From: Peteryoungia ipomoeae
Lineage (GTDB): Bacteria > Pseudomonadota > Alphaproteobacteria > Rhizobiales > Rhizobiaceae
Direction of reading: 5' to 3'
Assembly (NCBI RefSeq): GCF_004912165.1
Contig: NZ_STGV01000001.1
Span: forward strand, 620,001 to 684,000
DNA: 64,000 nucleotides
Positions 42,248 to 48,292 of this stretch are shown in pieces. The position numbers and the translations under genes are program-made. How positions within the stretch are numbered: position 1 is the first letter of the stretch; each line of letters opens with the position of its first letter. The notes beneath the pieces were generated by a model. It had not been told where the DNA came from and did not search any database. It worked only from the letters and a program-made list of their open reading frames with translations.

Positions 42248-43081
42248 ATGCAATCCTCCAAAGACATCAACCGCCTCATCGAGATCATGGCGGCCCTGCG
42301 TCACGCTGAAACAGGCTGCCCTTGGGATATTGTCCAGACCTTCGAAACCATCAAACCCTACACGATCGAAGAGGCCTACGAAGTCGCCGATGCCATCGAG
42401 CGGCGGGATCCGGACGATCTTTGCGAGGAGCTCGGCGATCTCTTGTTGCAAGTGGCCTTTCACGCCCGCATTGCCGAGGAAGAGGGGCTGTTTTCGTTTG
42501 GTGACGTCGTTGAGGCAATCACGCGCAAAATGATCCGGCGGCACCCGCATGTGTTTGCCCGGTCTGACGCCGACACGCCGGAGGCGGTGAAGGCACAGTG
42601 GGATGCGATCAAGCAGCAGGAAAAGGCTGACCGCAAGGCACGACGGGCAGCACGCGGCGCCGCAGCTGATCCCGATACAGGTTACCTCGGGTCTGTGCAG
42701 CGCTCATTCCCAGCCCTGACCGAGGCTTTGAAGCTGCAGGAGCGAGCTGCCAAGGTCGGTTTCGACTGGTCGGAGGCCGCACCTATCCTCGACAAGATCG
42801 AGGAAGAGATCGGCGAATTGCGGGAAGCGTTGGCAGAAAACCGGCCTGAAAAAGTGAAGGATGAGCTGGGAGATCTGTTCTTCGCGCTCGTCAATATCGG
42901 ACGGCACGTGGGGGCCGAGCCGGAACAGGCTTTGAGGGGAACAAATACAAAATTTCGGCGTCGCTTCAGCTACATAGAGAAGACGCTTTATGCTTCAGGT
43001 GAGGATATCTCGGCAGCGAGCCTCGATCGGATGGAAGAACTCTGGCAGGCTGCCAAAGCCCTTGAGCGGCAGATCGGCTGA
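42248..43081 (+). CDS. mazG: Nucleoside triphosphate pyrophosphohydrolase
   Basis: Hydrolyses NTPs to NMP and pyrophosphate, a house-cleaning activity. The 277 residues contain two MazG domains. The first has GCPWDIVQTFETIKPYTIEEAYEV and ELGDLLLQVAFHA; the second has KIEEEIGELREAL and DELGDLFFALVNIGRH, giving the EExxE/ExxD metal sites. In many rhizobia mazG is close to hflX-hfq; here an extra block lies between them. Confidence 0.95.
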   Translation: MQSSKDINRLIEIMAALRHAETGCPWDIVQTFETIKPYTIEEAYEVADAIERRDPDDLCEELGDLLLQVAFHARIAEEEGLFSFGDVVEAITRKMIRRHPHVFARSDADTPEAVKAQWDAIKQQEKADRKARRAARGAAADPDTGYLGSVQRSFPALTEALKLQERAAKVGFDWSEAAPILDKIEEEIGELREALAENRPEKVKDELGDLFFALVNIGRHVGAEPEQALRGTNTKFRRRFSYIEKTLYASGEDISAASLDRMEELWQAAKALERQIG

Positions 43082-43087
43082 TCGATC

Positions 43088-44304
43088 ATGCAGCTTCAAC
43101 GGTTTGAGGTCGCCATTGCCGGTGCTGGTGTCGGCGGACTTGCTTTGGGCACGATGCTTGCCCGTCATGGCGCTTGCGTCACGGTCTATGACCAGATGGA
43201 TGCACCCCGCCCTGTCGGTTCCGGCTTCGTGCTTCAGCCGACTGGCGCGCAGGTGCTGGAGGCCATGGGCCTGCTAACGCCTGTCGCCGCGCGCGGACGG
43301 CGCATCGATCGGATGATTGGACGTTTGAAAACCGACGGCGCGCCGGTGCTCGACGTGCGCTACCGCCGAGGCGAATTCGGCATCGCCGTGCAGCGGGCGG
43401 CACTGTTTTCCACCCTGTTCGAGGCGGCGAAGTCCGCTGGCGCGCGATTTGAAGCAGCAGCAAAAGTTGCCGATGTCGATACCGGTCTTGAGCCCCGCCT
43501 CGTTTTCAACAATGGGACGAAATCGGCATCCGCCACACTTCTCGTTGATTGCATGGGCTCCAGCTCTCCACTCGGCAATCGTGCTGACAGCGAGCTGCAA
43601 TACGGCGCGCTCTGGGCTACGTTCCCTTCCCAACCGATGGGCCGTTTCAGGAAAATCTGCTTGAACAGCGATATGCGCGGGCTGCCTATATGGCGGGTGT
43701 CCTGCCGGTCGGTACCGCCACGGAAGACGCCCCAGCCATGGCGACGTTCTTTTGGAGCCTGCGGGGAGCCGATTACGCCGGTTGGGTTAAGGACGGTCGC
43801 AAGGCGTGGCTGCCGCAGGTCGAGCGGCTCTGGCCGGAGGCGGTCCCGCTTGCCGAAATCGCCGAGCCGGTGCATGCGCGTTATCGCCATCTGACCCGAC
43901 CACCCGTCATCGGCCGGCATGCGGTCCGCATCGGTGATGCCTGGCATGCGACGAGCCCGCAACTCGGCCAAGGGGCAAACATGGCGCTGCTTGACGCGGC
44001 GTCGCTGACCTCCGCTCTCGTCCATGCCCCGGATCTTGATGCGGCCATCCGGGTTCATCTGCGCCAGCGCCGACTGCATGTTTCAAGCTACCAGTTTCTC
44101 AGCCGGGTGCTGACGCCGTTCTACCAGTCGGATAGCCGGTTGCTGCCTGTCCTGCGCGACCATGTTATCGCGCCGATCACCACGCTTCCCGGCATCCGGG
44201 CAATCGTATCCGCGCTTGTCACGGGTGACCTGCTCGATCCTGTCGCGCGTCTGCGGCTTCAAGAAGCTTTGGCGACCGCGACCGATTTGGTTTCTCGGCC
44301 TTGA
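43088..44304 (+). pseudogene. FAD-dependent monooxygenase, frameshifted
   Basis: UbiH/PheA-like flavin monooxygenase remnant of about 405 residues. The first part, from the ATG at 43088, holds the FAD motif AGAGVGGLALG and reads to about 43635. The second part is in a different frame (43636-44304) and carries the RIGDAWHATSPQLGQGANMALLDA (GD-x-AH-like) motif. The break is in TTCCCTTCCCAACC (about 43622-43635), where one missing base would restore DGPFQENLLEQRY. A sequencing error is possible. Its end overlaps the bchJ end by 86 bases on the opposite strand. Confidence 0.8.
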
Positions 44305-44941
44305 TCACCCACTCGCAGAGAGCATTGCCGCGCCCGCAGCAACGGGCATGCGCGATGACGACGTGCGCTGACGTCAGAGCCTCGAACAGTCCTTTGAAGA
44401 CTGCGCCGTGCCACGGGCAACCCGGTGTTGCCAGCGGATTGCCGGCAATCACCAGGGTCGGGACCGGGTGCCGCCAGCCCCGCACCCTCGCCGCGAAACG
44501 GCCGCTGCCGGAAAAAGTCCAGGCGTGGCGGGAGATGGCGGAGACGAGGGCGCGCGAGGCGATTGCCGAAGGCAAGAGCGGCAGGATCTGCCGCGCGGTT
44601 TTCGGGATCCTGTTCTTTAGAATGTACTGCGCTGTCCGGCTCCCGGCTTCAGACAGTACCTTGTCGGCTTCGCCCGCCGGCAAGGCTTGGCGGATGGCGG
44701 CAAAGAGTGCTTGGGCTTCCCGTTCGTCGATCAAGGCTTCCGGTGGCGTTTGGATGTAACGAGACAATCCGGCTGCCTCGTAGATCCGGCTGGCGGCGCC
44801 AAAGCCGTAACGCGACGACAGGACCTCGCCTGCTTGGATGATGGCATTGGGGCCGAGGCGGGCGGGCGAAGGCTCAACCGCATCTGTCCCCTTTGCCTCA
44901 ACGTCGAAGAGCCTGCCAAGGCCGTATTCAGAGGACGGCAT
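44219..44941 (-). CDS. bchJ: Bacteriochlorophyll synthesis V4R protein
   Basis: A 240-residue protein with an N-terminal helical region ([23 protein letters not shown]) and a C-terminal V4R domain with [16 protein letters not shown] and [15 protein letters not shown]. Early work named BchJ a 4-vinyl reductase; later work favours a tetrapyrrole-binding helper role. The ATG at 44941 overlaps the bchE stop by 14 bases, giving the bchE-bchJ order of Rhodobacter photosynthesis clusters. The last about 20 residues, a charged tail, are unlike the rest, and the gene runs 86 bases into the convergent monooxygenase remnant. Confidence 0.88.
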
Positions 44942-46553
44942 CGTGGCTCTCCGGCCCGCCGCCGCAAGCCATAACCGGTGTGGGGATGCCATCCGCCTCG
45001 CCGGCCTTGCGGGCACGCATTTGGCTTGCGCGGTCGGAGGCCGCCTGCCAGTCGGCCATCTGCGCCGGGGCGATGCGGCGGGTCATGTCAAAGCCGAAAT
45101 CAACCTTGTCCTTCGATTGAGGGCCCCAGTAATTATGCTTGCCGAGATCGTAGAACTTGCGCTCGAAGCCTGCCTTGAGGAAGGCCTTGAGGCAGCCCAG
45201 CAGATAGCGGCGCCGAAAACCCTTTCCGCGCCAGGGGTAATGGAAAAGCGCCTTGATCATGTAGAAGCGACGGTAATTGTTCATCACGCGGTCGAGCAGC
45301 TCGGCGCGGTCCATGGCGTCGGGCTTCATGATCGGGGTAACGAAATTGTACTTCGAGAAGTCGAAAATCTCGACTTTATCGCCCAGTTCCTGGAAGAGCG
45401 GCGAGAAGGGCCACGGCGTATACATGGCCCAGTTGGCGAGATCCGGATTCCAGTCGCGGGCCATGCGATAGGTTTCCTCGAGCGTCTCGGCCGTCTCGTT
45501 TTCAAGGCCGACGATGAACTGCGCTTCGGTGAAGATGTCCGCTTCGCGCAGGAGCCGGATCGCCTTCTTGTTCTGTTCGACCTTGGTTTCCTTGTTGAAC
45601 CGATCGAGTTTCAATTGGGCCGCGGCTTCCGTACCGAGCGAGACATGCACAAGGCCTGCCTTGCGGTATAGCGCCAGATAGTCCTCGTCACGGATGATGT
45701 CGGTGACGCGGGTGTTGATGCCCCATTTGACCTTGTCCGGCAGGCCACGCGCGATCAACTCCTCGCAAAAGGCGATGAACTTCTTGCGGTTGATGGTTGG
45801 CTCCTCGTCCGCAAGGATGAAGAACCCGACCTGGTGATCCTTGACCAGTTTTTCGATCTCGTCGACCACCTTCTTCGGATCGCGAATGCGGTAGTCGCGC
45901 CAGAACTTCCATTGCGAGCAGAAGGAACAGGTGAAGGGACAGCCGCGCGCCATATTGGGAATGGCGACCCGCACACCAAGAGGAAGGTAGATGTATTTCT
46001 CCCATTCGAGAAGCGTCCAATCGGGTTCGACGGCGTCGAAATTCTTGACGGTTGGCGCTGCGGGCGTGGCGACGATCTTACCGTCGTCGGTGGTGTAGGC
46101 GAGCCCCCTGATCCCTGCCCTCGCCTCCTTCCAGCCACCGGTTGCAAAAGCGCGGACAAGCTCGACAATGATCTCCTCGCCCTCACCGCGAACGATAACA
46201 TCGACTTGGGGCGCTTCTGTCAGGACCTGCTGGTACATGAAGGTGGCATGGACACCGCCGAGCACACGCAGGGCTTCTGGGCAGACCTGCTTTGCCAACT
46301 CGAGGCAACGCTCTGCCATGTAAATTGACGGCGTGATCGCGGTACAGCCGATGATGTCAGGCTGCAGGCGGCGTAGTTCCCCGCGCAGACGGTCCTCGGA
46401 CATATCGTTGGTCATGGCATCGAGGAAATGGATGTCGGTGAAGCCCGCGGATCTCAGTGCTCCGCCGAGATAGGCGACCCAGGCGGGCGGCCAGTTGCCG
46501 GCGATCTCGGCGCCGCCGGAGTGATAGTTCGGATGAATGAAGACGATGCGCAT
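44928..46553 (-). CDS. bchE: Mg-protoporphyrin IX monomethyl ester oxidative cyclase, oxygen-independent
   Basis: Forms the isocyclic ring E of (bacterio)chlorophyll without oxygen, using cobalamin and radical SAM chemistry. The 541 residues match BchE throughout: [20 protein letters not shown] at the start, a B12-binding domain (about 1-140), the radical-SAM motif C205-x3-C209-x2-C212 (GCPFTCSFC), and a C-terminal region with [19 protein letters not shown]. No truncation or missing key residue is visible. The start at 46553 follows GGAGG by five bases. Upstream lie an anaerobox and a TGT-N12-ACA inverted repeat. The gene sits between hflX and mazG, without other bch, puf or crt genes in the window. 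Confidence 0.93.
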
Positions 46554-46561
46554 GACCACCT

Positions 46562-46597
46562 CCCCAAATGTGTAAATAAAAGTTGACACATTTGGGG
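46562..46597. promoter_or_regulatory. Perfect inverted repeat upstream of bchE (TGT-N12-ACA)
   Basis: CCCCAAATGTGT and ACACATTTGGGG are perfect 12-base arms around a 12-base spacer. The inner triplets give TGT-N12-ACA, the operator pattern of CrtJ/PpsR. In the bchE transcript the same bases could form a 12-pair hairpin that takes in two G residues of the ribosome binding site GGAGG (46563-46559). It ends nine bases before the start codon. No U-tract follows on either strand, so it is not a terminator. Confidence 0.75.
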
Positions 46598-46607
46598 TCG
46601 GGACCAC

Positions 46608-46621
46608 TTGACCTGGATCAA
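46608..46621. promoter_or_regulatory. FNR/FixK-type anaerobox upstream of bchE
   Basis: TTGACCTGGATCAA fits the anaerobox TTGAT-N4-ATCAA with one mismatch per 10 conserved bases. Its centre is 61 bases upstream of the bchE start, in the 85-base hflX-bchE gap. Oxygen-independent cyclase expression under anaerobic control would be logical; R. sphaeroides bchE is reported to be FnrL-dependent. Confidence 0.65.
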
Positions 46622-46638: not shown

Positions 46639-47973
46639 TCAGCGCTCCCAATCTTCTTCAGGCTTTGGCTTCAATCCACCGAGCTTCCGTTCGAGCTCAT
46701 TCGCCTGGCGATCGGTCAAGCGCACATCGAGGCTGACGGAACCGTCTTCATGGTCCTCGCGCTCGCTGACAACGGCGTTCTCATACAGCCAGGATATTAC
46801 GGCGTGTTTGTCGGCGGGAATAGTGATCGTCGCCTCGGTGAGGACACCGGAGAGCCGTTGCGAAATTACGTCAAGCAGCGTCTCGACGCCCTCGCCGCTG
46901 ATGGCGGAAACCGGCAAGACATTGTCGCGGCTGGCAGCCTTTTGCAGGAGACCATCGTGATTTTCCGGATCGAGCCGGTCGATCTTGTTCCAGACTTCCA
47001 AGATGCGCTCGGAACGTTCCTTCTCGTCGATGCCGAGATCGTCGAGAATGCGCAGCACATCCGCCGATTGGGCACGGTTGTCCGGGTCCGACATGTCGCG
47101 GACATGCAGAATGAGATCGGCTTCCAGCACCTCTTCCAACGTGGCCCGGAAGGCGGCGACGAGGTGGGTCGGCAGGTCGGAGATGAAGCCGACGGTGTCG
47201 GACATGATGACCGTGCGGCCATGCGGCAGCTTCATGCGGCGCAGCGTTGGATCGAGGGTCGCAAAGAGCATGTCTTCGGCAAGCACGCCGGCACCCGTAA
47301 TACGGTTGAACAGCGTCGACTTGCCGGCGTTGGTATAGCCGACCAGCGCCACGATCGGATGCGGCACCTTGCGACGTTTGGCGCGGTGCAGCTGACGGGT
47401 ACGAACGACCTGTTCCAGCTCGCGCTCGAGCTTGATGATCTTGTCCTGCAGCTGACGGCGGTCGGCTTCGATCTGGGTTTCACCCGGACCACCCATGAAG
47501 CCCGCCCCACCGCGCTGGCGTTCAAGGTGGGTCCAGGAGCGAACCAACCGACCCTTCTGATAGTTCAGATGGGCAAGTTCAACCTGCAGCGTGCCCTCCT
47601 TCGTGGAGGCTCGGCGGCCGAAAATCTCAAGGATGAGGCCGGTTCGGTCGATGACTTTTGCGCCCCATTCCTTCTCAAGATTGCGTTGCTGCACCGGTGT
47701 CAGCGGATGATCGACGATGACAAGGCCGGCGTCCAATTCATCGAGCAGCGCCTTTATTTCCGCAATCTTGCCAGTGCCGAGCAAGGTCGCAGGACGGGGC
47801 TGGTTCACCGCCACAATCAGCCCCTGAACAATCGTCAGATCGATTGCGCGGGCAAGGCCGATTGCTTCTTCAAGGCGCGCTTCGTTGGAACGGCTTGGCG
47901 CCGGCGGCGCGCCTTCCGGCAGAGGCTGAACCTTTGCCTGCTTCAACACCGGCACAAGCACAAGCGCCCGCAT
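46639..47973 (-). CDS. hflX: Ribosome-associated GTPase HflX
   Basis: GTPase that splits or rescues stalled 70S ribosomes. From [10 protein letters not shown] the protein has about 444 residues. An N-terminal nucleotide-binding-like domain ([28 protein letters not shown]) and a coiled coil ([20 protein letters not shown]) precede the G domain: [11 protein letters not shown] (G1), DPTLR (G2), DTVGF (G3), NKID (G4) and SAISGEG (G5). The frame stays open for about 20 more codons upstream (TSRDTKNDSIIPEDEK) that look conserved but lack an ATG, so an alternative start is possible. It lies 67 bases downstream of hfq. Confidence 0.93.
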
Positions 47974-48040
47974 GTCATCCCGGGATTTTTCGTCCTCCGG
48001 GATGATCGAATCGTTCTTTGTATCGCGGCTGGTGATGATC

Positions 48041-48292
48041 TCAATCCTGTCCGGATGGGGCGTCGTCGTTCTCGAACATATCCATCGGCTGGCCAGGCAT
48101 GATGGTCGAGATTGCGTGCTTGTAGACCAGCTGCGAATGACCGTCGCGGCGCAGGAGAACGCAGAAATTGTCAAAGGATGTCACGACACCGGTCAGCTTC
48201 ACGCCGTTGATCAGGAAGATCGTCAGCGAAATCTTTTTCTTACGAACGGTGTTGAGGAAAAGATCCTGCAGGTTTTGAGAACGTTCCGCCAT
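48041..48292 (-). CDS. hfq: RNA chaperone Hfq
   Basis: Hexameric Sm-like protein that pairs small RNAs with mRNAs. The 83-residue protein starts [20 protein letters not shown]. Sm1 and Sm2 motifs are visible ([21 protein letters not shown] and KHAISTIMP), followed by a short acidic tail. Typical size for rhizobial Hfq. It is in the usual hfq-hflX order. Confidence 0.98.

Follow-up and report, generated by a model that had tools for sequence, protein, structure and literature searches.

Passages of PMC12654162 that treat the bchE–bchJ pair (bchEJ) describe it as missing in most aerobic phototrophs, either from the photosynthesis cluster (in the Rhodobacterales) or altogether, and report that in Roseobacter litoralis only bchEJ is chromosomal, with the cluster on a plasmid. 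Similarly, a gene list in PMC6052148 sets bchJ and bchE of Dinoroseobacter shibae apart as additional genes, whose locus numbers are remote from those of the cluster. In Rhodobacter sphaeroides, according to the part of PMC4263372 that deals with the bchE promoter, FnrL and CrpK act on a bchE reporter, the TCAA thymine of the FnrL/CrpK site lies at −57, and altering it lowered reporter activity. The exact role of BchJ is described as unsettled in the section of PMC4432870 that discusses it, where support of chlorophyllide a reductase is suggested. Here, we analyze a bchE–bchJ pair in a 64-kb stretch of the Peteryoungia ipomoeae genome (C1:620001-684000, hereafter the window; assembly of 4.39 Mb in 23 contigs). 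Agrobacterium albertimagni and some Rhizobium strains are listed as carriers of a photosynthesis cluster; in the open-licence literature on rhizobial clusters, we recognized no paper on the cluster of this genus. We consider it very likely that the pair belongs, as the bchE–bchJ operon, to a purple-bacterial photosynthesis system with its main cluster at another place in the genome; it would be under FNR/PpsR control and complement AcsF.

The initial annotation, made from the window, had left two options: either the remainder of a photosynthesis cluster lies elsewhere in the genome, or a different tetrapyrrole reaction accounts for the retention of the pair. The genome search that it proposed for bch, acsF, puf, and crt genes bears out the first. 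PufL and PufM (PF00124) are located on contig C11, and 80 kb around pufLM were compared by tblastn with 35 proteins of an annotated Roseinatronobacter cluster. This reference was one of three regions read in a plasmid search that gave 76 records with a match, four of them at 60–80% identity (best place). Thirty of the 35 reference proteins were found on C11, from bchI (~153 kb) to tspO (~197 kb): bchIDO, crtIB, crtCDEF, bchCX, idi, hemA, puhE, acsF, a small open reading frame (ORF), puhBA, lhaA, bchMLHBNF, ppsR, bchG, pucC, bchP, and tspO. The frames after bchX are BchY (688 bits vs. a cut-off of 425) and BchZ (752 vs. 529), which are absent from the reference set, while AcsF scores 495 bits (cut-off 192.5) and PpsR 288 (cut-off 275). 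In the same 80 kb, there was no match for puhC, aerR, crtA, bchE, or bchJ; a search there with the BchE and BchJ of the window for pieces left in the cluster gave best E-values of 0.23 and 0.49, which were taken as chance and set aside. By its gene content, the genome is that of a predicted phototroph. Conversely, the only matches of the 35 reference proteins in the window are bchE and bchJ, the genome’s own bchY and bchZ have no match there, and the only two PF00124 matches of the genome lie on C11. The claim that the 64 kb hold no further photosynthesis gene is upheld within these query sets, which do not include pufA and pufB.

The window BchE is full-length, with the domains and cysteines that had been read from its sequence: it scores 832.3 bits against TIGR02026 (cut-off 481.35), covering model positions 1–497 of 497, and carries a B12-binding domain (PF02310, 81.4 bits), a Radical_SAM domain (PF04055, 90.3 bits), and a CxxxCxxC motif at C205/C209/C212, with the start at ATG 46553. 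Passing the TIGR02026 cut-off does not settle the identity by itself, because a second rhizobial family passes it too; the domains and the tree placement described below agree with a predicted BchE cyclase. BchJ, encoded downstream of bchE from ATG 44941, scores 158.4 bits against TIGR02019 (cut-off 74.3) and has the common residue in 43 of the 45 columns in which more than 80% of 80 BchJ rows share one residue. Its description as intact holds, whereas the V4R domain said to be kept gives a weak match (22.6–22.9 bits, E 9e-5), below the Pfam cut-off of 31. The two genes overlap by 14 bases (44928–44941), as annotated. Counting from the first ATG, this overlap recurs in 14 of the 17 pairs of the genus, and the other three overlap by 17 bases, two of them also having an ATG that gives 14.

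The 85-base gap between hflX and bchE contains both an FNR-type and a PpsR-type box (Table 1). The PpsR (TGT-N12-ACA) and FNR/FixK patterns are consensus sequences, the TCAA half-site of bchE being given in PMC4263372; in the window, the TCAA thymine of the FNR-type box lies at −58. Among the genus loci, the FNR-type box lies at −67/−68 in 17 of 17 and the PpsR-type box at −34/−35 in 16 of 17, with one row (G336) offset by 6 in box positions, where a later start was chosen. Over 105 bchE loci, in which some genomes are counted twice, a PpsR-type box occurs within 150 bases in 92, an FNR-type box in 93, and both in 87. Shuffling the 85-base gap 5000 times never produced both boxes; over the whole window, the counts are unremarkable (9 vs. 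6.4 expected for TGT-N12-ACA; 8 vs. 4.7 for FNR-like sites). Along the same lines, 38 stretches of 150 bases downstream of hflX, from 37 bchE-less genomes, contain no PpsR-type box, one FNR-like site, and never both. Therefore, the control region accompanies the operon. On C11, five strict PpsR-type boxes (two further ones are loose) lie near operon starts (bchI, crtD/crtE, and bchC twice, as well as bchG), a suggestive placement, and the 44-kb cluster has no FNR-type box (2.9 expected). Among the regulators of the genome is a Crp/Fnr protein whose N-terminus is rich in Cys and whose recognition helix reads ETVSR.

Table 1. Features of the bchE–bchJ locus and its neighbors, in window coordinates.
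Feature	Position	Strand	Description
bchE	44928..46553	-	oxygen-independent Mg-protoporphyrin IX monomethyl ester cyclase (predicted), B12-binding + radical SAM, 541 amino acids
bchJ	44219..44941	-	240 amino acids; ATG inside the 3' end of bchE, 14-base overlap
FNR/FixK-type box	46608..46621	-	TTGATCCAGGTCAA; begins 68 bases before the bchE ATG
PpsR/CrtJ-type box	46571..46588	-	TGT-N12-ACA, TGTCAACTTTTATTTACA; begins 35 bases before the bchE ATG
hflX	46639..48174	-	neighbor of bchE; TIGR03156, 449.5 bits; ORF as listed
hfq	48041-48292	-	124.6 bits vs. cut-off 95
mazG	42248..43081	+	neighbor on the other side; NF007113, 352.9 bits; synteny

In relatives, full bchE was found only alongside reaction-centre genes. 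In 63 genomes of the genus, full bchE (>800 bits) was found in 17 and reaction-centre genes (PF00124) in 26; all 17 carriers have PF00124 (in G334 as a fragment at a contig end), and none of the 37 genomes without reaction-centre genes has bchE (Fisher p 3e-9, uncorrected for kinship). In a sample of 297 genomes of the family, 13 have bchE above 800 bits, two of them members of the genus, and all 13 have PF00124, which exceeds its cut-off in 39 of the 297. Only top matches were used in the family-sample bchE and genus hflX searches, and a family genome with reaction-centre genes and a partial bchE match of 455.7 bits (G262) was placed in neither bchE class. The site is also conserved: bchE adjoins hflX in all 17 genus carriers; the two matches are 89–130 bases apart in 15 of them and ~700 bases apart in G313 and G333. 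Two incomplete genomes, G335 and G344, gave no hflX above the cut-off. An eighteenth case, G332, has a bchE fragment of 64 residues next to hflX, where the contig ends, and was excluded from the bchE state on the hflX tree and from the count of bchE-less downstream stretches. In four relatives (G304, G320, G321, G345), bchE and pufM share one contig, more than 1 megabase apart; thus, the separation from the reaction-centre genes lies within one replicon there.

We also placed the protein in a quick BchE tree of 89 rows (85 BchE and four outgroup rows from the second B12 radical-SAM (S-adenosylmethionine) family; one locus with a short frame, L039, dropped), in which 28 of the 85 inner branches remain open. 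The tree, which the initial annotation had called for, puts the window protein inside BchE beside Rhizobiales loci: it falls in a clade of ten rhizobial rows (support 99), which is then joined by L017 and L018 (99), two bchE loci with cluster genes nearby. The median ratio of nonsynonymous to synonymous substitutions (dN/dS) is 0.04–0.05 for bchE (0.042 over 120 non-independent pairs), similar to that of hflX (0.058) and pufM (0.046, 105 pairs), with open frames of 537–543 amino acids in 17 of 17 genus loci. BchJ has diverged further. Its frames are open in the same 17 loci, its length varies between 218 and 259 amino acids among relatives, and its median dN/dS is ~0.26 with dS near saturation. 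Where BchE is 94–99% identical, the median BchJ identity is 0.61 in the clade vs. 0.86 at other loci (26 and 7 pairs), and where BchE is 90–94% identical, it is 0.53 vs. 0.72 (19 and 9 pairs).

As a separate observation, the second B12 radical-SAM family passes the TIGR02026 cut-off (517–555 bits) in 14 of the 297 family genomes, and in one case (L215) the neighbors of the gene are an Lrp/AsnC regulator and a phenylalanine 4-monooxygenase. This family probably gives rise to false bchE annotations.

Taken as a low-oxygen operon of the photosynthesis system, bchEJ would work as follows. When oxygen falls, an Fnr-type protein would activate the bchE promoter, and PpsR would release it. At low oxygen, BchE would then replace AcsF, which requires O2, in closing ring E: via its B12 and radical-SAM centers, it would act on Mg-protoporphyrin IX monomethyl ester and draw the oxygen from water. 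BchJ may aid later steps, by substrate delivery or by support of chlorophyllide a reductase.

A number of observations weigh against this picture. Nine of the 26 genus genomes with reaction-centre genes have no full bchE (one of them with a contig-end fragment and one 86% complete), and bchE is therefore dispensable for phototrophy. On a tree of hflX from 55 genomes (8 of the 63 left out; two rows partial), bchE needs 3 changes and the reaction centers 5, so that the co-occurrence reflects few independent events; a sign test on this tree has 3 independent pairs, with which significance is unreachable. As for control, one genus locus (G320) has no exact PpsR box, 18 of the 105 bchE loci miss one or both boxes, and the number of TGT-N12-ACA matches in the C11 cluster (7 vs. 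3.4 expected; largest shuffle 8) is within chance. The best model for the Fnr-type protein is FnrL, at 231.5 bits, below the cut-off of 300, and in R. sphaeroides, the fnrL deletion elevated bchEJGP transcripts despite the activating reporters, according to the section of PMC4263372 on these genes. Finally, bchJ diverges fast in the clade (median dN of 0.35 vs. 0.024 for bchE), and three control BchJ proteins give V4R matches of 42.0, 57.4, and 62.2 bits, stronger than that of the window.

How the operon came to its site is a question within the photosynthetic reading, and gene order at the end of the cluster bears on it. The C11 cluster ends bchP-tspO-cytochrome-dxs-ORF, while loci L017 and G123 (perhaps one genome) read bchP-cytochrome-dxs-ORF-bchE-bchJ-tspO; the cytochrome, dxs, and ORF proteins are 64, 67, and 47% identical between the two (dxs is named from a family match, and ‘cytochrome’ is our reading of the sequence). 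The cluster end is thus common to C11 and L017/G123, and on C11 bchEJ is missing from it, with tspO shifted too. We discarded a version in which bchEJ was lifted out of a place flanked by bchP and tspO, the place in L017/G123 being after the ORF and tspO having moved. Departure of bchEJ from the cluster end to the hflX–mazG site is plausible, and we suggest, with less assurance than for the function of the genes, that the operon moved in this way. Alternatively, bchEJ may not derive from the resident cluster but have arrived on its own by horizontal transfer, an origin that we regard as possible, if not the one we favor. The pair occupies its own site, and tspO, which follows bchJ in L017/G123, is placed differently on C11, so that a single clean excision fails to explain the gene order. 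Likewise, the bchE of G327 is closer to the clade (dS 0.61) than are its hflX (0.84) and pufL (1.14), hinting at exchange between lineages. Against separate transfer, the closest outside loci, L017/G123, have bchEJ in the cluster, right after the same block that ends the C11 cluster.

Two side observations were made at other loci. In L016 and G327, HflX is 84% identical to that of the window, yet BchE is 93% identical, with bchEJ at the same hflX site; exchange between lineages may account for this closeness. At locus L006, a 317-amino acid ORF directly upstream of ppsR (L006:339-1292) matched no NCBIfam or Pfam family and is 28% identical, over part of its length, to the G123 ORF between dxs and bchE.

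A further step, which we put forward tentatively and with some doubt, would make the bchEJ operon at the hflX–mazG site a separable low-oxygen module, gained, lost, and exchanged by rhizobial phototrophs at one fixed chromosomal site independently of the main cluster, and setting how far into low oxygen their bacteriochlorophyll synthesis reaches. If so, bchEJ would be the sole bch operon under direct Fnr-type control, because the search for FNR-type boxes came up empty in the 44-kb cluster.

A less favorable explanation takes the pair for a decaying remnant, with AcsF doing the work and bchEJ being lost, a course taken by many aerobic phototrophs. In its favor, nine reaction-centre genomes of the genus have no full bchE, and at the hflX site of seven of them (G297, G312, G318, G331, G337, G339, G341) there was no bchE or bchJ match. 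In G297, which groups among bchE carriers with modest support (86/82), only ~38 bases separate the hflX and mazG matches, and the fast evolution and weak V4R match of BchJ fit decay as well. The dN/dS of bchE near 0.04, the open bchE frames throughout the genus carriers, and the boxes held in place argue otherwise and make decay highly improbable.

The least probable explanation, a tetrapyrrole or other B12 radical-SAM reaction outside photosynthesis, has in its favor the housekeeping neighbors and the existence in rhizobia of the second, BchE-like family, found without reaction-centre genes in 12 of its 14 cases, but we reject it on co-occurrence, promoter, and tree: that family is only 30–34% identical to the window BchE over the aligned part (five cases: L207, L208, L209, L210, L215), a long branch with full support stands between its four outgroup rows and the 85 BchE rows, bchE above 800 bits never occurs without PF00124 in either sample (17/17 in the genus, 13/13 in the family), and the promoter boxes match those at other bchE genes. 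The second option of the initial annotation thus finds no support.

The housekeeping surroundings themselves, hflX/hfq on one side and mazG on the other, were matched by family profiles as first described; the true hflX start lies further in than listed, because the listed ORF overlaps hfq. Between mazG and bchJ, at 43088–44304 (+), a gene for a flavin adenine dinucleotide (FAD)-dependent monooxygenase is broken up into ORFs of 268 and 204 amino acids, which lie in different frames and overlap. The same gene is a single ORF of 395–413 amino acids in 10 of 10 relatives’ loci (two probably from one genome), and the 3' end of the split gene overlaps the 3' end of bchJ on the opposite strand.

These results bear on how such loci are read. 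A rhizobium that looks non-photosynthetic from the window is predicted to be phototrophic and to have two ring-E cyclases, apparently under different oxygen controls. Neither a housekeeping neighborhood nor a lone TIGR02026 match says much about what a bchE gene does. Within the genus, genomes that have the cluster and bchEJ, the cluster but no bchEJ, or neither form a natural series for testing the value of a low-oxygen cyclase.

Compared with described systems, the closest parallels in position are R. litoralis and D. shibae, in which bchEJ likewise lies away from the cluster (acsF is among the cluster genes listed for D. shibae), as given in the relevant passages of PMC12654162 and PMC6052148; both are Rhodobacterales, whereas the pair described here is rhizobial and sits at hflX–mazG. 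The R. sphaeroides bchEJGP operon, as presented in the bchE part of PMC4263372, also has bchE followed by bchJ and an FnrL-type box whose spacing to the start codon is almost equal to that in the window, but it includes bchG and bchP, which in P. ipomoeae are in the distant C11 cluster. Plasmid pSM-1 of Skermanella mucosa carries a bchE–bchJ pair too, with a 29-base overlap in its annotation and no other photosynthesis gene within 20 kb either way (the annotation is incomplete); unlike the window pair, it is plasmid-borne and lies beside a BLUF-domain gene. As bchEJ outside the cluster is already known in Rhodobacterales, the conserved site in rhizobia adds modestly to these systems.

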